NCBI RefSeq assembly: GCF_024347295.1
Contig: NZ_AP025458.1
Coordinates: 2,294,001-2,358,000 of the forward strand
DNA length: 64,000 bases
Reading direction: 5' to 3'
DNA from: Vibrio artabrorum
GTDB lineage: Bacteria > Pseudomonadota > Gammaproteobacteria > Enterobacterales > Vibrionaceae
Part shown: positions 9,585 through 43,092 of the stretch, in pieces
How the letters are laid out: every line of letters begins with the position of its first letter
How positions within the stretch are numbered: the stretch's first letter is position 1
Notes under the pieces: generated by a model
Seen by the model: only the letters and a program-made list of their open reading frames with translations
Database searches by the model: none
What the model was told of the DNA's origin: nothing
Program-made: the position numbers and the translations under genes

Positions 9585-9800
9585 CGCAGTAGCTAGCCTG
9601 AACGGCTTGGTTCTTTCCAGAATCAATTGGCTCGGCTCCTGCGATGTTGTGTTTGCAAACTCGTTATTTTCGAGTTGGGTAGAGTTCTACCAAATGTTTT
9701 GTTACAGCGATATACTGAAACGAGACATATACTTCCTATATTTATTTTGACCTGTCTGTCAAATTTGTTTACACCGTCTTATGGGCGGTGTTTTTTTTTT
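9585..9800 (+). ncRNA. gcvB: GcvB small regulatory RNA
   Basis: A roughly 215-nt RNA gene divergent from gcvA. It shares with E. coli GcvB the GU-rich seed region (GATGTTGTGTTTGCAAAC, 9643-9660), a small hairpin (GGTAGAGTTCTACC, 9678-9691), the ACTTCCTATATT and CCTGTCTGTC segments (9731-9760), and a terminator CACCGTC / GGCGGTG followed by T10 (9772-9800). GcvB is an Hfq-dependent RNA that pairs mainly through the GU-rich element with mRNAs of amino-acid and peptide transporters. Two short open frames on this stretch have no codon or ribosome-binding support and are explained by the RNA. The 5' end is inferred from the promoter. Confidence 0.88.
9772..9800 (+). terminator. gcvB terminator
   Basis: 7-bp stem CACCGTC / GGCGGTG (one G-U pair) with a 5-base loop and ten Ts. 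It is a near copy of the E. coli GcvB terminator (CACCGCC...GGCGGTG). Confidence 0.85.
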
Positions 9801-20308: not shown

Positions 20309-21418
20309 TTATTCGCAAACGTACTCAACAACGTTAAGGCCAAAACCACCCAATGCATGGTAACGCTTAGAGCTTGAAGAGAGCAGACGCATATCTTGAA
20401 TGCCTAAGTCTTGCAGAATCTGAGAACCCACCCCAACACGACGAGAGGTACCTTGCTTCTTCGCCATTGTCGGTTGCTCATTTTTATCCTGAGCTTCGAA
20501 TGTCTTCACTTTATGAATCAAAGAATCTGACGACTCCTCATTCCCAAGAATCACCAATACACCCCCTTCGTCACCAATACGTTTCATCGCTTTATCTAAT
20601 GACCAACTGCGCTCGGCACCACGATCAGAATGCAGCAGATCAGTAAACGTATCATGCAGGTGAACACGCACTAAAGGCGCTCCTTCAGATAGGTCGCCTT
20701 TCTGCATCGCATAGTGGATCTGGTTATCAATGGTATCGCGGTAAGTCACCAGCTCGAAATCACCAAACTCTGTTGGTAAGTGACATTGTGCGACACGTTC
20801 AATCGTGGTTTCGGTGTTGTTACGGTATTCGATCAAGTCAGCAATGGTGCCTAGTTTGATATCGTGTTTTTCAGCGAAAATCTCAAGATCTGGACGACGA
20901 GCCATAGTACCGTCGTCGTTTAGAATCTCAACGATAACGGATGCTGGCTCACAACCGGCGAGACGAGCTAAGTCGCACCCCGCTTCAGTGTGACCCGCGC
21001 GCGTTAACACACCGCCTTCTTGCGCTGTCAGTGGGAAAATATGGCCCGGTTGAACTAAGTCTGCCGCTTTGGCATCTTTCGCCACTGCCGCTTGAACCGT
21101 CACAGCGCGGTCTGATGCAGAAATACCCGTGGTTACGCCCTCTGCCGCTTCAATCGAAACCGTAAAGTTAGTGGTGTACTGTGCATTGTTGTCTTGCACC
21201 ATAGGCGCAAGCCCCAGACGATTTGAACGCTCTTTGGTCAGTGTAAGACAGATTAAACCACGGCCATACATCGCCATAAAATTAATCGCTTCAGGCGTCA
21301 CATGTTCTGCTGCCATGATCAGATCGCCTTCATTTTCACGATCTTCATCATCCATCAGGATAACCATTTTTCCTAGGCGAATGTCTTCAATAATTTCTTG
21401 AGGAGTACTAATTGGCAT
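20309..21418 (-). CDS. ribB: RibBX: DHBP synthase fused to a degenerate GTP cyclohydrolase II domain
   Basis: A 369-residue fusion. The N-terminal half (about 1-200) is an intact 3,4-dihydroxy-2-butanone-4-phosphate synthase, with [21 protein letters not shown] and [14 protein letters not shown]. The C-terminal half is homologous to GTP cyclohydrolase II, but the zinc-site region reads [23 protein letters not shown], where active enzymes have HSECLTGD and RCDCG. All three zinc cysteines are gone, so the second activity is probably lost. Such RibBX forms are common in Proteobacteria; a true ribA is expected elsewhere. It lies in the ribD-ribE-ribBX-ribH operon. No FMN riboswitch is seen upstream. 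Confidence 0.93.
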
Positions 21419-29029: not shown

Positions 29030-30319
29030 TTAAGCGAAAATGTATTTAATAATAAAGATAACCGACATTACCCACACAGCAGGAGAAACGTCACGACCTT
29101 TACCGCTTAACAACTTAATTGCAGCATAAGCGATGAAACCCAGTGAAATACCCTCAGCAATAGAGTATGTCAGAGGCATAAGCAGACATGTTACCACGAC
29201 TGGTGCAGCTTCTGTAAGATCACGCCAATCAATACCGACTAAACCAGACATCATTAGAATGGCGACATAGAAAAGCGCACCGGATGTAGCGTAAGCTGGG
29301 ATCATACCGGCCAATGGTGAGAAGAAAAGAGCCAATAGGAATAAGATACCAACCACCACTGCGGTTAGACCGGTACGGCCACCTTCAGCGACACCAGCCA
29401 CACTTTCAACGTATGAGGTGGTATTGGATGTACCCAGCAGAGCACCAATAGACGTTGCCGTTGAGTCTGCAAGTAGTGCTTTATTCAAGCGCGGTAGCTT
29501 ACCGTCTTCTTTGATTAAATTGGCTTTCGTTGCAACCCCCACCAAAGTACCCGCAGTATCAAACAAATCAACGAATAAGAACGCGAATATCACTGAAACC
29601 ATGCCGATATCAAATATAGCCGAGAAATCAAGCTGCAAAAATGTTGGAGCTAAACTTGGCGGTGTAGACATAATGCCGCCATATTGAACATCACCAACCG
29701 CAACACCGATCACGGTAATAGCAAGAATGGCAATCATTACCGCACCTTTCACTCCGCGGTGAACCAGAGCAACAGTAAGGAAGAAACCCAGAGCGCCTAG
29801 GATTGGAGCAATCGCCGTAATATCACCCAGTGAGACTTTCGTTGCAGGGTTAGACACCACGATACCAGCATTACTAAGCGCAATAAACGCAAGGAAAAGG
29901 CCGATACCAGCCGATATACCAACACGCAGTGACATAGGAATCGAATTGATGATCCATTCACGGATCTTAAAGAGGCTTAAGAAAATGAAGATGACGCCGG
30001 AAACGAAAACCGCCGCCAAAGCAACTTGCCACGTATAACCCATTCCCATCACAACAGCATAAGTAAAGAACGCGTTCAGCCCCATACCTGGAGCTTGAGC
30101 AATAGGGTAATTCGCAACAAAGCCCATAATGAAACAGCCAATAGCAGCCGCTAAACAGGTTGCGACAAAGACAGCGCCATGGTCCATACCTGCATCAGAT
30201 AGAATCATTGGGTTTACAAAAATGATGTAAGCCATTGTTAGGAAGGTTGTCAGGCCTGCGATGATTTCAGTATGGACATTTGTGCCATTTTCACTGAGTT
30301 TGAATAGCTTTTCGAGCAT
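29030..30319 (-). CDS. NCS2 / AzgA-type purine permease
   Basis: A 429-residue inner-membrane transporter with about twelve to fourteen hydrophobic segments, of the AzgA-like branch of NCS2 (hypoxanthine/adenine/guanine:H+ symporters such as E. coli AdeP/GhxP). Signature segments are NVHTEIIAGLTTFLTMAYIIFVNPMILSDAGMD, APGMGLNAFFTYAVV, FAFLFVDLFDTAGTLVGV and GTSNTTSYVESVAGVAEGGRTG. Exact substrate specificity cannot be read from sequence. A perfect PurR-type operator lies 23-38 bp upstream, supporting a purine role. It sits between gpt and pepD, which are adjacent in E. coli. Confidence 0.92.
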   Translation of the reverse strand: MLEKLFKLSENGTNVHTEIIAGLTTFLTMAYIIFVNPMILSDAGMDHGAVFVATCLAAAIGCFIMGFVANYPIAQAPGMGLNAFFTYAVVMGMGYTWQVALAAVFVSGVIFIFLSLFKIREWIINSIPMSLRVGISAGIGLFLAFIALSNAGIVVSNPATKVSLGDITAIAPILGALGFFLTVALVHRGVKGAVMIAILAITVIGVAVGDVQYGGIMSTPPSLAPTFLQLDFSAIFDIGMVSVIFAFLFVDLFDTAGTLVGVATKANLIKEDGKLPRLNKALLADSTATSIGALLGTSNTTSYVESVAGVAEGGRTGLTAVVVGILFLLALFFSPLAGMIPAYATSGALFYVAILMMSGLVGIDWRDLTEAAPVVVTCLLMPLTYSIAEGISLGFIAYAAIKLLSGKGRDVSPAVWVMSVIFIIKYIFA

Positions 30320-30341
30320 TTTCGAATCCTATATGGGTAAG

Positions 30342-30369
30342 AAGTAAACGGTTGCGTAAACGATTGGCC
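30342..30369 (-). promoter_or_regulatory. PurR-type operators upstream of the purine permease
   Basis: On the minus strand 30357-30342 reads ACGCAACCGTTTACTT, matching every fixed position of the E. coli PurR consensus ANGCAANCGNTTNCNT. An overlapping weaker copy, GGCCAATCGTTTACGC, occupies 30369-30354. The location just upstream of the start codon suits repression of the permease by PurR when purines are plentiful. Confidence 0.7.
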
Positions 30370-30728
30370 GTGATTATAAAGTTATCAAATAACAAATTCT
30401 AGATAGAATTAGGGCTCTAAACGATATTTATCAAAATAGTATCGACATCAAAGTGATAAAAAAAACAAGCTATAAAAACATTAACCATTAAAAACAAATA
30501 ATTAAAATAGTAGGCGACGATAAAGTCACTTGATTATCATTTCGAAAAAATGCCATTTTTATTGAAAATCCTTTGATTAAATTTTCAGTTTATACCGGCA
30601 AGAACTGGTCATTTTTCAACATAATTAGTTATAAAGTGAAAATTAACGATTTGACGTTAGAAAAACAACCGCAGTGAGTGGTAGAGAAATGACAAATGGA
30701 GAGAGTGGAAAGTGGCAGGCAAAAAAAA

Positions 30729-30750
30729 CGCCACTCAAAAATGAGTGGCG
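30729..30750 (-). terminator. Terminator of the small minus-strand transcript
   Basis: Perfect 9-bp stem CGCCACTCA / TGAGTGGCG with a 4-base loop, followed on the minus strand by eight Ts. It lies about 410 bp upstream of the permease start and so cannot belong to that gene. It is the expected 3' end of the small unit starting near 31023. Confidence 0.82.
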
Positions 30751-30828
30751 GTAGAATCTGTCAACCAAGGGTTGTAAAAAAATTCCAATATTAGGGGTGA
30801 ACAAACTGTTCAAGTCACATGCGTTGGT

Positions 30829-30915
30829 TTAGTAACCAAAGCTTGTTGGGTATGCAAAGTTGCTAGTATAAACCGAGCTGTTAATCCAGAACATTGCAGA
30901 TGGTAAACCTTTCAT
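30829..30915 (-). CDS. Putative 28-residue small protein
   Basis: ATG at 30915 with a good ribosome binding site (AAGGTGAT, ending about five bases before the ATG) and a TAA stop at 30829-30831. The peptide begins MKGLPSAMFWINSSVY and ends PTSFGY. It is rich in S, Y, F, N and W, with no charged stretch, transmembrane helix or signal peptide. A promoter about 115 bp upstream and an intrinsic terminator about 80 bp downstream frame it as a separate ~300-nt transcription unit. I do not recognise the peptide. It could be a functional microprotein, a leader peptide, or the coding part of a dual-function small RNA. Confidence 0.5.
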   Translation of the reverse strand: MKGLPSAMFWINSSVYTSNFAYPTSFGY

Positions 30916-31029
30916 AACTATCACCTTAGTAAATCAATAAAAAACGAATATGATTTCTCAGTTCCTTGGAGGCGATAAAACGGACTCATCCTTTGAGCAT
31001 TTACTCTTCACTTCAGAAGTTGGTTACTA

Positions 31030-31057
31030 ATATACCACTAAGAAAAAAGATTACAAC
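31030..31057 (-). promoter_or_regulatory. Promoter of the small minus-strand transcript
   Basis: On the minus strand TTGTAA (31057-31052), a 16-base spacer and TATATT (31035-31030). Predicted start near 31023, giving a 5' leader of about 108 nt before the 28-codon frame. The leader contains a small CTCA/TGAG hairpin. Confidence 0.55.
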
Positions 31058-31370
31058 AACTTTCCGTTCAACTTCACACTTTTGATATAAATGATTATTT
31101 ATACAACTGAATTAAGTAATTAAATTACAAAATTGTTTTTAAATTACCTGTCAACCCAGCAATATTAAGCATACAAATGCGTATTTGTAATCAAGTAAAC
31201 AAACTGGCGTTTAAAAATTGAGGTGTCTGAGGCTTAGAAGCACTACTCGTAAAAACACGCAAGTGGTATGCTGTTGCCATTAAAGCAGACCTATATTTTA
31301 GATTTTTGTTCTAATTTATCATCCATTGAAACTCTAAATATATGGCAATCAAATAAAAAAGGAGTCATCC

Positions 31371-37107: not shown

Positions 37108-37671
37108 ATGTATATTTTTGGTTATGGCAGCTTAATCAACTCATGTTCACGCCAGCTTACCGGTCAGACAGGGCAAGCGATCCCTGCGATTGTTCATGGC
37201 TTAGTGCGCCATTGGAGCAAGATCGATGACAGCTATGTGTTATCACCTTTGATCGTCAATCTTGGCAAGGGACAAGTCAATGGTGTGTTGCTTGAAGTGG
37301 ATGATATTGCACTGGCTGAATTTGATCGACGTGAGCGTGGCTATCACCGAATTGAATTAAAGGCTTCTCAGATCGAAAGCCAAGATGAGTTCAAGCAGGA
37401 GCAAGCGATCTGGGTATACATCAAAAACGAGATTGAAGCACCTTGCGAAAACAGCCCTATCGTTCAAACCTATGTCGATACGGTATTGGCAGGATGTTTA
37501 GAGGTGTCTGAAAGCTTTGCGGAACACTTTGTTAAACACACGCAAGGTTGGCATCACCCATTAGAAAATGATCGCCACCAGCCTAAATACGGCAACCTTG
37601 CCGGGGTTTCCGATCACCACCACAGTGTGATTGATGGTTTGATAATGACCGTGCGCAGCGAGTTGCTCTAG
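37108..37671 (+). CDS. Gamma-glutamylcyclotransferase-like (AIG2/GGACT) protein
   Basis: A 187-residue cytoplasmic protein of the gamma-glutamylcyclotransferase fold. The substrate-binding loop YIFGYGSLI is at the very N-terminus and the probable catalytic glutamate lies in EFDRRERGYHRIEL, the expected positions. Family members release 5-oxoproline from gamma-glutamyl amino acids or isopeptides; the exact substrate is unknown. It sits alone, convergent with the tRNA-binding protein gene. The longer C-terminal part beyond the GGCT core (about 110-187) is not recognised. Confidence 0.82.
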   Translation: MYIFGYGSLINSCSRQLTGQTGQAIPAIVHGLVRHWSKIDDSYVLSPLIVNLGKGQVNGVLLEVDDIALAEFDRRERGYHRIELKASQIESQDEFKQEQAIWVYIKNEIEAPCENSPIVQTYVDTVLAGCLEVSESFAEHFVKHTQGWHHPLENDRHQPKYGNLAGVSDHHHSVIDGLIMTVRSELL

Positions 37672-37742
37672 ATAGCCAATTGCCCTTCAAAGCGAGTTCA
37701 TTTAGGTTGGTGAACACATTGGCTCTCCAACCTAAAGCGCGC

Positions 37743-38078
<336 letters not shown>

Positions 38079-38230
38079 TCACATCCTATATTGAGCTACT
38101 TTTTACCTAGAACGATATTTACTAAAATTAAGTAAACTATAAATATTTACACTAGCATTAAGTCTAATAATTACAAGTGGTAAAGCTCTCATTACTGCGA
38201 AGTAAAGAGCATAAAAGTTGTCAGTAACTG

Positions 38231-40015
38231 TTACCAGATCTCACTCAATTTTGGCCAACCCCAAGCGGTGATTTTCACGCCTTTAAAGATATCGAGAAAG
38301 CTGAGCGTTTGCCTATGGTGGAGCATCGGAGTAATTAAGCCTTCGTAGATAAGAACAGAGCCTAGTTGCTCGAGTTGATTGAGGTATTCGTTGGGTGAGA
38401 AATTCTCTCGGATACGGTTAAGCTCAACCACCAGCCATTCACTCACATCAGATCCAATTGTGGCATGCAGAACAGGATCACTCAAAAAGTACAACAGAGC
38501 CGACACTTGGCGGTTATCATCAAGATTAAGGCTACTCATGACGATCTCTTCAGTGAAGCCATCACCCTGTGCTTTCTCTATGAACACTTCAAAAGAGTAG
38601 AGATTGATCTGCGCTTCAATGCCAGCCTTCGACAATATTTGTGCCGCAGCTTTGGCGCTGCGTTGAACCCCTAAGTGGGAATAGCAGGCAATCTGAACTG
38701 AGCGAGGCAATTCGGTTTGTTGGCTTCTGATCTGTTTAACGTTATGCCAGAAAGGGAAGAAGTTGTGCGCTATTTCGGCTCCAAATGTCGTTTCATTAAG
38801 TTCGAGCTGGCGCCAAATTTCCTCTCCGTTTAGTCGCTCGCTCAACCAACGACGCTGAGGGTAAGATAAGCTTGGGTTGTTTTGATTGAAAATAATAAAC
38901 AGACAACCTTCCTCAATCCGATCTCTTGATGCGGTATGTTGAAAGTCTGGCGTATGATGGCTTTCCAATGCACTTTTATTGAACTCACTGCTCGCATTGG
39001 TGATGATTTTTTTAGAATACGGCTCTGTGTCAGGCACACCACATGAATCACCAGAGGCTTGTTCATGGTTATCCAAGGACGAATTTAAAGACCAAATCGT
39101 CACTTTATCCGTCAAAGATCGGAAACCATGAAAGTGCTCATTAGCCGCTAAGGTCAGCTTGCTGTCTGAGTGCATTTCAAGGGAAAAGATACCGCAACCA
39201 ACAACATTAGATGATGCGTGTTTGAGTTGTTCCGGTGGTTGGAGCGAGTACTTTAAATCACTCATCAACGCAGCAAAGCCTTTATCACTTCGACTGAGAT
39301 GAACAGAAAATCGATAAGGCGTTTCAACCGTGATGGCTTCAAGGTGATAGAGTTCATTTCGATAATAAGGCAGTGCTTGTAGTTCAAGTAATAGTTGCGA
39401 GACAACCTCAGCATCAACTTTGCCACCCGAATGAAAGCTCACGGAAGGACGAAGATAAAAGGTCCACACTGTCCAATTTTCATCGGCTTCCCAATGGTGT
39501 GCAATATTAGGAATCAAATCGCCTTCTGAGTTCATTGAAACCAAACAAGAATGGATTTGACGAATCAAATAGCGCTCACTATTACGATGCGGCATTGTCG
39601 GAATAAGAGCAGCAAATGGCCGATTATAAGTCAATTGTACACTCACTTTGCCTTCTGTCACTTGTGCTCCAGAAGTCTGCTTCAACAACTGTTCGAAAAC
39701 CACTTGATTGTATTCAAGAAACTCCAGAGCCCGGTCGTATTTGCTCTCTTTGATCCACTCCAAGGCAATAGAGCGCTTCACCTCGGTGCGGCCGATGCGA
39801 CGAATGAGAGTCGAACGCTGATTTCGCCCGACTCGTGGCATCCAAGCAACCCACTTACGTTCCGTCATCTGTTTAAGGATGGTACGCGCATGCCGTGGAC
39901 TGGTGCACATCTTGTCTGCAGTCTCTGCAAGTGTGACGGCATGCTCGAGCAATAATTCAAATTCTTCTAGCCGTTCGTAATATCGAAAAAGGTTAATACC
40001 ATCCAAAATAGGCAC
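38231..40015 (-). CDS. sgrR: SgrR family transcriptional regulator
   Basis: A 594-residue regulator (E. coli SgrR 551). The N-terminal winged-HTH domain (about 15-120) has the family motif TSPRHARTILKQMTERKWVAWMPRVGRNQRSTL. The C-terminal part is a solute-binding-protein (SBP_bac_5-like) domain: IPTMPHRNSERYLIRQIHSCLVSMN and HHWEADENWTVWTFYLRPSVSFHSGGKV. In E. coli SgrR senses glucose-phosphate stress and activates the divergent small RNA gene sgrS, whose RNA blocks ptsG translation. Here sgrR is divergent from ptsG itself across about 400 bp, which strongly supports a sugar-phosphate role. Effector and exact promoter targets are inferred. Confidence 0.9.
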   Translation of the reverse strand: MPILDGINLFRYYERLEEFELLLEHAVTLAETADKMCTSPRHARTILKQMTERKWVAWMPRVGRNQRSTLIRRIGRTEVKRSIALEWIKESKYDRALEFLEYNQVVFEQLLKQTSGAQVTEGKVSVQLTYNRPFAALIPTMPHRNSERYLIRQIHSCLVSMNSEGDLIPNIAHHWEADENWTVWTFYLRPSVSFHSGGKVDAEVVSQLLLELQALPYYRNELYHLEAITVETPYRFSVHLSRSDKGFAALMSDLKYSLQPPEQLKHASSNVVGCGIFSLEMHSDSKLTLAANEHFHGFRSLTDKVTIWSLNSSLDNHEQASGDSCGVPDTEPYSKKIITNASSEFNKSALESHHTPDFQHTASRDRIEEGCLFIIFNQNNPSLSYPQRRWLSERLNGEEIWRQLELNETTFGAEIAHNFFPFWHNVKQIRSQQTELPRSVQIACYSHLGVQRSAKAAAQILSKAGIEAQINLYSFEVFIEKAQGDGFTEEIVMSSLNLDDNRQVSALLYFLSDPVLHATIGSDVSEWLVVELNRIRENFSPNEYLNQLEQLGSVLIYEGLITPMLHHRQTLSFLDIFKGVKITAWGWPKLSEIW

Positions 40016-40416
40016 TCCAAAGCTAAGTTTAAGTTCCTTATATTAGTTTGATCATGGCCCAGTCAAGTAAAAGTGTCTAAAAACACCATTATGGGGAACT
40101 TGAAATATAAAAAACACACTCTTTTTATATTCCTCATTTTTAGCAAAAATAAACTAAGTTCTAGTGCAGCCCTACGGTTGAGTAATTCAGGCGAAGATAA
40201 TTCATCGATTGTTGAATGCAAAAAGCATTCACAACAAAAGCCTCTCCGCCAACGGTAAATTCACTCTTTAAAAGCTTTAGCGATAGCAACCTACTTTATG
40301 TTTATGCTCCTACCCCCTGCAAACCATAATTTCGCTGCTATCGCTAATCCCCTTTTTGCCATTACTTATCGATGATATTGCACCCCAAATTTTATATAAC
40401 AAATTGGAGTATATTT
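40016..40416 (+). promoter_or_regulatory. sgrR-ptsG divergent regulatory region with RNA-like structure
   Basis: 401 bp between divergent genes. It holds a stem-loop TTGTTGAATGC...GCATTCACAACAA (40209-40237) and an 11-bp perfect inverted repeat TAGCGATAGCA (40278-40288) / TGCTATCGCTA (40336-40346) enclosing 47 bases, followed by C4T5. Inside that loop TATGCTCC (40303-40310) can pair with GGAGTATA (40406-40413), the ptsG ribosome binding site, through eight base pairs including one G-U. The layout fits either an SgrS-like small RNA or a regulatory ptsG leader. A 55-61-codon frame in this stretch has no ribosome binding site and is not accepted as a gene. Confidence 0.5.
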
Positions 40417-41826
40417 ATGTTTGCTAACTTTTTTGCCAACTTGTCTAAAGTAGGTAAAGCCTTGATGTTGCCCATAGCCTCAATGCCCGCAGCGGGTATT
40501 TTATTGGGCATTGGCTCGGCACAATTTGGGTTTATTCCACCGGTGGTTTCTGAGTTAATGGCAGAAGCCGGTGGCGCAGTCTTCGGTAACCTGCCATTGA
40601 TTTTTGCATTAGGTGTGGCGATTTCATTCACCAACAATGACGGTGTCAGTGCGGTAGCGGGAGGTATCGGTTATTACGTTCTGGTGGCGACACTGAAAGT
40701 CATGGCAGGCGTGCTGGGTGTAGATCATATCGACACGGGTGTTCTTGGCGGCATCATCTCTGGTGCGGTTGGTGCGTATATGTTTAACCGCTTCTACACC
40801 ATTAAGATGCCCGCTTATTTGGCCTTCTTTGCTGGTAAGCGATTTGTTCCAATCGTAACGTCATTTTCTATGCTGTTCTTGGGCGTCGCCATTGCATTTA
40901 TTTGGCAACCAATCGGTGCTGGCATTGATTGGTTTGGCTCCTGGGCTACGGAACAAAATCCATTGGTGGCATTCTGGGCTTACGGCACCGCTGAGCGAGC
41001 GTTGATTCCATTTGGTCTGCACCATGTGATTAACGTGATTATTCAACTTCAAGCGGGTGAGTTTGTAAACGCAGCTGGCCAAGCATTCCATGGGGAAATT
41101 CCTCGCTTCTTCGCAGGCGATCCCAATGCGGGCAACCTAGCTGGTGGCTACTTATTTAAGATGTTTGGCCTTCCTGCCGCTGCAATTGCAATTGGCCGAG
41201 CTGCGAAACCAAAGAATCGCACCAAAGTCATGGGCATCATGGTCTCAGCTGCACTGACATCATTCCTAACCGGTATCACAGAGCCTATTGAGTTTGCGTT
41301 CTTATTCATCTCACCAGCGCTTTACGTGATTCACGCGATCATTGCAGGGCTCGCTTATCCACTGTGTATTATTCTGGGTGTCAAACATGGCTACAGCTTT
41401 AGTGCGGGTCTTATCGATTACGTGACCTTCTTTGGTATCTCAACCAAAGGCTGGATGATCATACCACTAGGTTTGGCTTACGCAGTGCTGTACTACATAG
41501 TTTTCACTTGGTTTATTAAGAGATTCGATCTCAAAACACCAGGCCGTGAAGAAGAAGACAACAGCAAAGCAATCAATGACACAAGCTCAGAGTTTGCCCG
41601 TGAATTGGTCAGCGCATTTGGTGGCAAGCAAAATATCTTGAGCACAGATGCGTGTATCACTCGCTTGAGAATCCAAGTCGACGAGCAAGACAAAGTCGAC
41701 GAAGCAAAATTGAAAGCGCTAGGCGCAGCAGGTGTCGTGCGAGTGGGCACTGGTGTACAAGCTATTTTCGGTGGCAATAGTGACGTTTATAAAACTCAAA
41801 TGGTCGACTGGATGAACAACAACTAG
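40417..41826 (+). CDS. ptsG: Glucose-specific PTS enzyme IICB PtsG
   Basis: A 469-residue glucose transporter/phosphotransferase of the PTS (E. coli 477). The start at 40417 ([36 protein letters not shown]) has a GGAG ribosome binding site eight bases upstream; an earlier in-frame ATG at 40372 has none. The EIIC domain (about 1-380) has [34 protein letters not shown] and [16 protein letters not shown]. The EIIB domain (about 395-469) carries the phosphorylated cysteine in [13 protein letters not shown]. Phosphate comes from EIIA-Glc, encoded elsewhere. It is followed by its own terminator. Confidence 0.95.
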
Positions 41827-41873
41827 TTTTCCTAATGCCATGTTCTAGGTCTGTACAATAAAACATAAACTCT

Positions 41874-41905
41874 AAAATCGCGGTCGCATCGATGACCGCG
41901 ATTTT
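41874..41905 (+). terminator. ptsG terminator
   Basis: Perfect 12-bp stem AAAATCGCGGTC / GACCGCGATTTT with an 8-base loop, continuing into TGTTTT. It lies 48 bp after the ptsG stop. Confidence 0.88.
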
Positions 41906-41945
41906 TGTTTTGTTGCAGCCAATCGATTCAAACACTGACCTATAG

Positions 41946-41961
41946 AAGATAACGTTTACAC
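41946..41961. promoter_or_regulatory. Candidate GalR-type operator upstream of galR
   Basis: AAGATAACGTTTACAC has a perfect right half-site CGTTTACAC, identical to the galE operator at 48281-48296, but a poor left half. It lies about 133 bp upstream of galR, so autoregulation is possible but not proven. Confidence 0.4.
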
Positions 41962-42093
41962 TTCACATATATTCAATAAATTCATAGAGTAATGGTGAAT
42001 TCATCGCAATATAAAAATGGTGATAATTGCACTGATTACACAATGGGTGTTTAATACTCCGGTTAACGTTATTTAGCCCACGAAAGGTCCCTC

Positions 42094-43092
42094 ATGGCAA
42101 CCATTAAAGATGTAGCAAAGGAAGCGGGAGTTTCTGTTGCAACGGTATCTCGAGTCGTAAATAAGTCTCCGAAAGCAAGCGCAAACTCAATTGAGTCCGT
42201 CACTAAAGCGATGTCTAAACTCGGTTATCGCCCGAATGCCAATGCTCGCGCGCTGGTAAGCCAGAGTACCAATACCGTCGGTGTGTTGGTTGGTGATATC
42301 TCCGATCCCTTCTTTGGCACGCTGGTTAAAGCTGTCGATAATGTTGCTCGTGAGAACGGAAAGCACATCCTCGTCGGTAATGGCTCACACGATCGTGAAG
42401 AAGAAAGACAAGCGATTGAATTACTGATTAATAGTCGCTGCGATGCCTTGGTGATCCACTCGAAAGGACTCACTGACGAAGAGCTGATTGCCTACGCCAA
42501 AGAGGTCAAGGGCTTGGTACTGATCAACCGTTATATTGCTGAGATTGCCAACCGTTGTATTTTTTTGGACAACAAGAAAGGCGCGTATCTTGCGACGGAA
42601 TACTTGATTCGCCATGGTCATAACAATATTGCCTGCATCGCTTCATCGCACAGCATTGAAGATGCTGATGAGCGTGTACAAGGTTATTTGTCAGCACTTT
42701 CAGATTACAAAATAGCACTATCGGACAACTATATTGAGTACTCGACTCCCACCAGTGACGGTGGCGAATACGCCATGACCAACCTTTTGACTAAATCACT
42801 GCCAATCACCGGCATTGTAGCGTACAACGATTACATGGCAGCAGGAGCTTTGTCTGTGCTTGATGAAAACGGTATTCAAGCACCGGACACAATGTCGATC
42901 ATCGGTTTCGATGATGGCTTGATTGCCCGCTATGTTCATCCAAGGCTGACTACTATTCGCTATCCAATTCAGATGATGGCGGAGAAAGCGACACGACTCG
43001 CGCTGTACTTAGCCAAAGGTGAAAACACCTCAACTGAGCCAATGATGTTCTCTCCGACTTTGGTACGCCGTAATTCGGTAGAGAAAATCTAA
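42094..43092 (+). CDS. galR: LacI-family repressor, GalR/GalS-like
   Basis: A 332-residue LacI/GalR regulator. The N-terminal HTH is MATIKDVAKEAGVSVATVSRVVNKSPKASANSIESVTKAMSKLGYRPNANARALVSQ, near-identical in style to E. coli GalR/GalS. The periplasmic-binding-like domain begins NTVGVLVGDISDPFFGTLVKAVD. The gal genes follow on the opposite strand, and a perfect GalR-type palindrome lies in front of galE, making galactose the likely inducer. It is transcribed toward galM and ends at a hairpin. GalS-type isorepressor function cannot be excluded. Confidence 0.88.
   Translation: MATIKDVAKEAGVSVATVSRVVNKSPKASANSIESVTKAMSKLGYRPNANARALVSQSTNTVGVLVGDISDPFFGTLVKAVDNVARENGKHILVGNGSHDREEERQAIELLINSRCDALVIHSKGLTDEELIAYAKEVKGLVLINRYIAEIANRCIFLDNKKGAYLATEYLIRHGHNNIACIASSHSIEDADERVQGYLSALSDYKIALSDNYIEYSTPTSDGGEYAMTNLLTKSLPITGIVAYNDYMAAGALSVLDENGIQAPDTMSIIGFDDGLIARYVHPRLTTIRYPIQMMAEKATRLALYLAKGENTSTEPMMFSPTLVRRNSVEKI

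Follow-up and report, generated by a model that had tools for sequence, protein, structure and literature searches.

A predicted small RNA gene divergent from sgrR in Vibrio, with a hairpin loop complementary to the ptsG start region, as a candidate counterpart of SgrS

The locus described here lies in a window of 64,000 nucleotides, the whole stretch of Vibrio artabrorum DNA that was analysed, and its features are collected in Table 1. Direct reading confirmed that an sgrR-type gene diverges from a ptsG-like gene, as had been stated in a preliminary description made from the sequence alone. The two stem-loops and the 47-nt loop described there for the intervening spacer were found as well; the inverted repeat given as 11 bp was corrected to a stem of 12 bp, one pair more. 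The proposed pairing of TATGCTCC (40303-40310) with GGAGTATA was placed at the right positions and comprises eight paired positions, one of which is a G-U pair. The terminator of the window clade is imperfect, as CCCC intervenes between the stem and the T-run. In this clade the spacer adjoins a ptsG paralogue and is without the small ORF found in many relatives, which is why the preliminary description makes no mention of one. A 37-aa ORF in the spacer (40216-40329) was judged to be non-coding; its sole clear match among 148 genomes was in G005 (76% over 29 aa), where the in-frame start is a TTG, and the printed ORFs of G099 contained no counterpart. The main Vibrio ptsG of the same genome is located on chromosome 1 near 1937357 on the minus strand, 397 kb from the spacer.

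Table 1. Features of the sgrR-ptsG spacer and the adjoining genes, in window coordinates.
Feature	Positions	Strand	Basis or remark
sgrR-type regulator gene, 594 aa, GTG start	38231..40015	-	ORF; Pfam SgrR_N PF12793
Promoter/operator-like block GGGGAAC-N30-TTCC...	40093..40145	+	candidate SgrR site and -35 region; putative function
Predicted small RNA, about 199 nt	40159..40357	+	predicted from sequence; 5' end placed in analogy to that of E. coli sgrS, T-run taken as the 3' end
First stem-loop GAATGC-AAAAA-GCATTC, 6 bp, 5-nt loop	40214..40230	+	direct reading
Terminator-like hairpin, 12-bp stem TTAGCGATAGCA (40277-40288) / TGCTATCGCTAA (40336-40347), 47-nt seed loop	40277..40347	+	
Seed ATGTTTATGCTCCT	40298..40311	+	exact complement of main ptsG mRNA, -12 to +2
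CCCCC, second conserved loop element	40313..40317	+	other targets possible
T-run (five T) 3' of the hairpin	40353..40357	+	TCCCC region between stem and T's
Ribosome binding site of the adjacent ptsG paralogue, GGAGTATA	40406..40413	+	weaker pairing partner, 8 nt, one G-U
ptsG-type PTS transporter paralogue, 469 aa from ATG 40417	40417..41826	+	

Conservation of the spacer was assessed in a sample of 148 genus-level genomes, the source genome included. When a 685-bp region was used as the query, the complete spacer was recovered from four of these, the source genome among them, and the three others keep both the hairpin and its loop; the loss of the repeat and the complementarity in close relatives, which had been named as a point against a regulatory RNA, was thus not observed. 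Searching with the loop pattern returned 12 places in 11 of the 148 genomes, compared with three places in three genomes for the reversed pattern. At ten of the 12, an sgrR-like ORF diverges from the pattern, which lies in a hairpin; the stems of these hairpins are of several different kinds. The other two places (L069 and L073) had no sgrR-like ORF beside them and no comparable hairpin and were set aside. The genus was then searched with Pfam SgrR_N (PF12793) and with the N-terminus of the window SgrR, the latter as the query for spacers of the same type. Among the matches listed for this query (E <=1.8e-37), 108 spacers in 92 genomes precede an SgrR of the window type. The seed was found within a hairpin in 86 of these 108 spacers and 82 of the 92 genomes and was absent from 22 spacers. 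The broad regular expression used for the seed, which like the promoter pattern was shaped after seeing the data, matched seven times in the antisense of the same spacers and 3.45 times in shuffles, against the 86 observed. As it had been extended on inspection, the count for the strict seed GCTCC-N0-8-CCCC is reported too: 70 of 108 spacers, with none in antisense and 0.55 in shuffles. Two control spacers (L213 and L214), which belong to a more distant SgrR type taken as DsvR-like, contained neither seed nor small ORF. The earlier suggestion that the spacer is likely to encode an SgrS-like RNA was judged to be right.

Of 80 named records kept from a scan of SgrR alignments, 65 carried the seed, including V. 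lentus, V. owensii, V. jasicida, V. mediterranei, V. splendidus, V. crassostreae, V. harveyi, V. coralliilyticus, V. mimicus and Photobacterium ganghwense. The nearest named record to the window SgrR was that of V. lentus, with 88% over 172 aa. The seed expression found no match in two other Photobacterium records (L387 and L414), in Enterovibrio (L417) or in V. metoecus (L403); despite this miss, the V. metoecus spacer has a hairpin with a C-run at the position of the seed. When the pattern search was extended family-wide, 13 of 121 genomes were matched; exact matches occurred in four, all within the genus, and every place in other genera had one mismatch.

In 66 of the 86 cases the stem of the hairpin surpassed every one of 60 flank-shuffles, and in others (L131 and L165, for example) it was no better than shuffles. 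There are 50 distinct 5' arms among the seed hairpins, and stems of differing length misaligned when they were aligned together. In seven close homologues, three stem pairs had changed on both sides, a number attained by 56 of 500 shuffles; the covariation score was reached by none of the 500. The outer helix is intact in all seven, and in three of them the same inner-helix pair is broken. At least five T within the 8 nt after the stem were present in 47 of the 86 hairpins, compared with five of 86 for the mirror arrangement of at least five A that a minus-strand terminator would leave; with a looser cut-off of four, the T-run was present in 64 and the A-run in 30. The conserved small ORF is likewise located on the plus strand.

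At its start region, the main ptsG has the sequence TCAGGAGCATAAACATG, within which AGGAGCATAAACAT (-12 to +2) is exactly complementary to the loop sequence ATGTTTATGCTCCT. This 14-mer has two exact places in the 4.44-Mb genome, one at the main ptsG and the other, in antisense, in the window spacer itself; one further place was found when one mismatch was allowed, as was also the case for the reversed-pattern control. The copy of the target 14-mer with one mismatch (L420, G000:C1:53663-53676) lies at the start of an ORF resembling a membrane-transporter subunit and may mark a further target. Pairing of the loop with the main ptsG was calculated at -31.1 kcal/mol, against -16.5 +/- 2.8 for shuffled loops, none of 300 of which reached this value. 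The earlier claim that the loop can pair with a ptsG start stood; the best predicted partner, however, is the main ptsG and not the adjacent gene, with a match of 14 nt without a mismatch. The complementarity was then compared over 104 spacers (two of them controls) for which the main ptsG start of the same genome was read; six spacers lacked a ptsG of this kind. Among the former are 82 seed loops, whose longest exact run of complementarity to their own main ptsG had a mean of 9.38 nt, against 4.42 for shuffled loops, and for 71 of the 82 the observed run was attained by at most one of 100 shuffles. The exact complement extends over 14 nt in the window, 16 in G051 and 15 in G076. The ptsG start is nearly invariant across the genomes compared and so leaves little room for co-variation between seed and target; one clear case was nevertheless found in G080, where an altered ptsG, GGAGCATGAAC, is matched by the loop GTTCATGCTCC. 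The longest exact match amounts to 8-10 nt in 51 of the 82 loops and there covers the generic Shine-Dalgarno sequence, so that ptsG need not be the sole target and further targets are likely. No ptsG match longer than 7 nt exists anywhere in the spacer in 22 of the 104 cases, of which one is a control. Other PTS mRNAs could be targets of the conserved C-run, as they are of the four C of VcdR (PMC8672173).

The preliminary description had also offered action in cis within a long ptsG leader. In such a leader of the neighbouring paralogue, read-through from the sgrS-like promoter past a leaky hairpin would allow the loop to pair with the downstream ribosome binding site and so set translation. 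Such a leader is consistent with the hairpin ending 70 nt before the paralogue ATG, with the imperfect T-run, and with the pairing calculated for the paralogue start (-20.3 kcal/mol against -11.0 +/- 2.5 for shuffled loops, reached by none of 300). However, in G051, G076 and G055 the hairpin and its seed diverge from sgrR although the 1.5 kb downstream contain no ptsG, and a DNA search found the adjacent paralogue in 11 of the 148 genomes, against 82 with the seed hairpin. In addition, the paralogue site of G082, G106 and G143 (GGGGTAATCAC or AGGGTAATCAC) mismatches the GCTCC of the loop, even if the C-run could pair with its G's, and for the window seed the distant main ptsG is the better match, at 14 nt. 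On this evidence, regulation of the paralogue in cis is regarded as unlikely, and action in trans on the main ptsG is preferred.

A small ORF of the type M..YYqqRLe.s.s.lERlALlaLiqLcqW was found upstream of the hairpin position in 68 of the 108 spacers. Its length is 28-96 aa with a median of 45 (58 of the 68 have at most 62 aa), counted from the first in-frame start, from which the true starts may differ. ORF and seed occur together in 58 spacers, the seed by itself in 28, the ORF by itself in 10 and neither in 12. The pN/pS ratio was 0.35 in frame, compared with 1.00 and 2.02 in the other frames (79 non-independent pairs, 51 distinct cores), and over a wider identity range it was 0.49 in frame compared with 0.99 and 1.62 (392 pairs, again non-independent); the ratio was the same with or without choosing pairs by protein identity. 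These values support a small ORF that is coding and under purifying selection. A profile of the small protein was built from 27 sequences of these spacers, which match it by construction, and when run against whole genomes it returned 72 places in 67 of the 148 genomes. Sixty-seven of these places, including all 65 with E <=3.0e-5, are beside matches to the window-type SgrR; the remaining five lie elsewhere with E values of 3.3e-4 or worse, four of them in ORFs of 1159-1162 aa and one in an interrupted frame. No remnant of the small ORF was detected in the window clade, where the best six-frame match had an E value of 9.1. The same genome does possess a second sgrR-divergent locus, on chromosome 2 near 124245-124400 (L135), which has an intact ORF of 32 aa together with a seed hairpin whose seed matches ptsG over 9 nt.

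An order-wide search with the profile matched 34 of 394 genomes, 14 of them outside the genus. At ten loci outside the genus (L328-L337), from two other families, the small ORF is followed immediately by a gene that by eye is VOC/glyoxalase-like (damaged-looking in L334), and an SgrR-like ORF is divergent in nine; neither GCTCC nor GTTCC was found in any of the ten within 260 nt after the small ORF. These loci are perhaps a protein-only form of the locus. At five loci (L185, L190, L191, L204 and L207), a variant protein (e.g. ..YYQSRLEQA...EAIIYTQSLISLYDW) is encoded divergently from SgrR, in spacers without the seed.

Alternatively, the hairpin could be a mere terminator of the small-protein mRNA, with its ptsG matches reflecting a generic anti-Shine-Dalgarno motif; the CTCC of the loop is of this kind, and the matches of just 8-10 nt in 51 of 82 loops are in line with it. 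However, the window clade keeps hairpin and seed without the small ORF, as do 28 of the 108 spacers overall, the loop motif recurs on stems that differ, and beyond the spacer itself the complement of the window 14-mer occurs once in the genome, at ptsG. A terminator with no more than generic complementarity is accordingly regarded as quite improbable.

The arrangement of the E. coli locus, with sgrR on the minus and sgrS-sgrT on the plus strand, is the same as that of the Vibrio locus, and SgrS shares the order of small ORF, base-pairing region and terminator, as well as complementarity to the ptsG start region. A GGAA-N22-38-TTCC block was found in 56 of 110 spacers, against 4.15 in shuffles, and the E. 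coli sgrR-sgrS spacer (L246) contains one too (GGGGAACT...TTTTATTTTCCCTATATTAAG), which is a similarity and not proof of common descent. The two systems also differ: the Vibrio seed GCUCCU..CCCC sits inside the loop of a terminator-like hairpin, whereas that of SgrS is 5' of the terminator; the Vibrio seeds differ from the E. coli SgrS sequence (L246); and the next gene in the window is a ptsG paralogue, whereas the SgrS system has setA. According to the available text of PMC4021124, the features that mark SgrS homologues are genomic place, promoter and terminator, together with a 13-nt pairing region that hardly varies. In agreement with the earlier remark that the spacer is not homologous to SgrS by sequence, a covariance search of the window with the Rfam SgrS model (RF00534) gave no match at the gathering threshold and none at E <=5 for positions 37500-42500. 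None of 19 Vibrio spacers matched the model at E <=1, compared with 228.8 bits for the E. coli control; the other Rfam match in these spacers was to Polynucleobacter-1, sub-threshold, in L164 (E 0.59). The SgrT family (PF15894) was listed at E <=10, with HMMER filters on, for none of ten small ORFs, NCBIfam likewise yielded none of ten, and alignment of the small protein with SgrT using hhalign gave a probability of 3.6% and an E value of 0.012 over 15 columns, which is not significant. The locus was not filed as SgrS because it gave neither an Rfam SgrS match nor significant SgrT similarity. The predicted Vibrio RNA is arranged like SgrS and probably works like it. The parts of PMC4114697 available to us count SgrS among the E. 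coli RNAs that, in one of two reconstructions, occur outside Enterobacteriales.

Judged by these comparisons of sequence, the spacer very probably contains the gene for a trans-acting small RNA divergent from sgrR, a Vibrionaceae counterpart of SgrS. What was observed is the sequence and its conservation, a structure in which some changes are compensatory, a complementarity that exceeds chance, and purifying selection on the ORF; from these we infer transcription from about the predicted start, control by SgrR and use of Hfq. When sugar phosphates accumulate, SgrR would switch on the promoter of the small RNA. The RNA would end in the conserved hairpin, whose big loop would expose the C-rich seed; by virtue of the observed complementarity, this would pair with the Shine-Dalgarno sequence and start of the main ptsG, and translation and with it glucose uptake would be blocked. 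In many relatives the same predicted RNA encodes the small protein, which plausibly does the job of SgrT. We also lean towards the more specific reading that this is a dual-function RNA of the Vibrionaceae's own, controlled by SgrR and either independent of SgrS/SgrT or diverged from them beyond recognition, that carries its seed in the loop of its own terminator, encodes a new family of small proteins of sugar uptake and has separable arms. The RNA arm alone would be kept in some species, and the protein arm alone in related families, as a small ORF beside SgrR and ahead of another gene, with no hairpin.

Work of 2025-2026 on sugar-phosphate toxicity treats V. cholerae as being without a known SgrS: it 'has not been identified' there according to the accessible portion of PMC12345230, and in that of PMC13060122 the species is said to lack SgrS, an analogous system not being excluded. 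The distribution of the seed hairpin points to a counterpart of SgrS in much of the genus Vibrio. Among the papers and passages covered, our literature search found no Vibrio seed-hairpin RNA divergent from sgrR in print, although such an RNA may have been published. If confirmed, the locus would mean that the sgrR-sgrS-ptsG circuit is older, or re-evolves more readily, than has been assumed; it would also open to testing a new family of small proteins that likely take part in sugar uptake.

Vibrio cholerae vc2278 and vc2279, which we take to be a permease gene and pepD, respectively, give a gene order that is matched in the window at 30320-31370, about 9 kb away from the spacer. The gene of the dual-function RNA VcdRP is placed between these two in the available text of PMC8672173, and membership of the spacer RNA in this family, suggested by the fact that in both a small ORF precedes a C-rich seed directed at ptsG, was rejected on this synteny and is very improbable. 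A candidate vcdRP, assigned from the gene order in the available text of PMC8672173, lies in the window on the minus strand at about 30726-31031, flanked by the permease gene (29030-30319) and the pepD-like gene (31371). It has a 28-aa ORF from 30915 and CCCC at 30794-30797, and a long T-run accompanies its terminator-like hairpin. As described in the accessible parts of the same paper, VcdRP of V. cholerae resembles the predicted RNA in being a dual-function RNA with a C-rich seed near its 3' end that represses ptsG and other PTS mRNAs, but it is encoded at another locus and repressed by CRP, and its protein VcdP acts on citrate synthase (PMC8672173). TarA of V. cholerae is likewise a small RNA that pairs with the 5' region of ptsG mRNA but is activated by ToxT, as stated in the available part of PMC5225090. 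DsvR (VCA0578) is a regulator of the SgrR family, going by the available text of PMC13060122, and is probably the more distant SgrR type of the control spacers. Elsewhere in the window, Rfam matches to GcvB and to the Vibrio RNA AS9 were obtained at 9587-9799 and 21215-21321, respectively.
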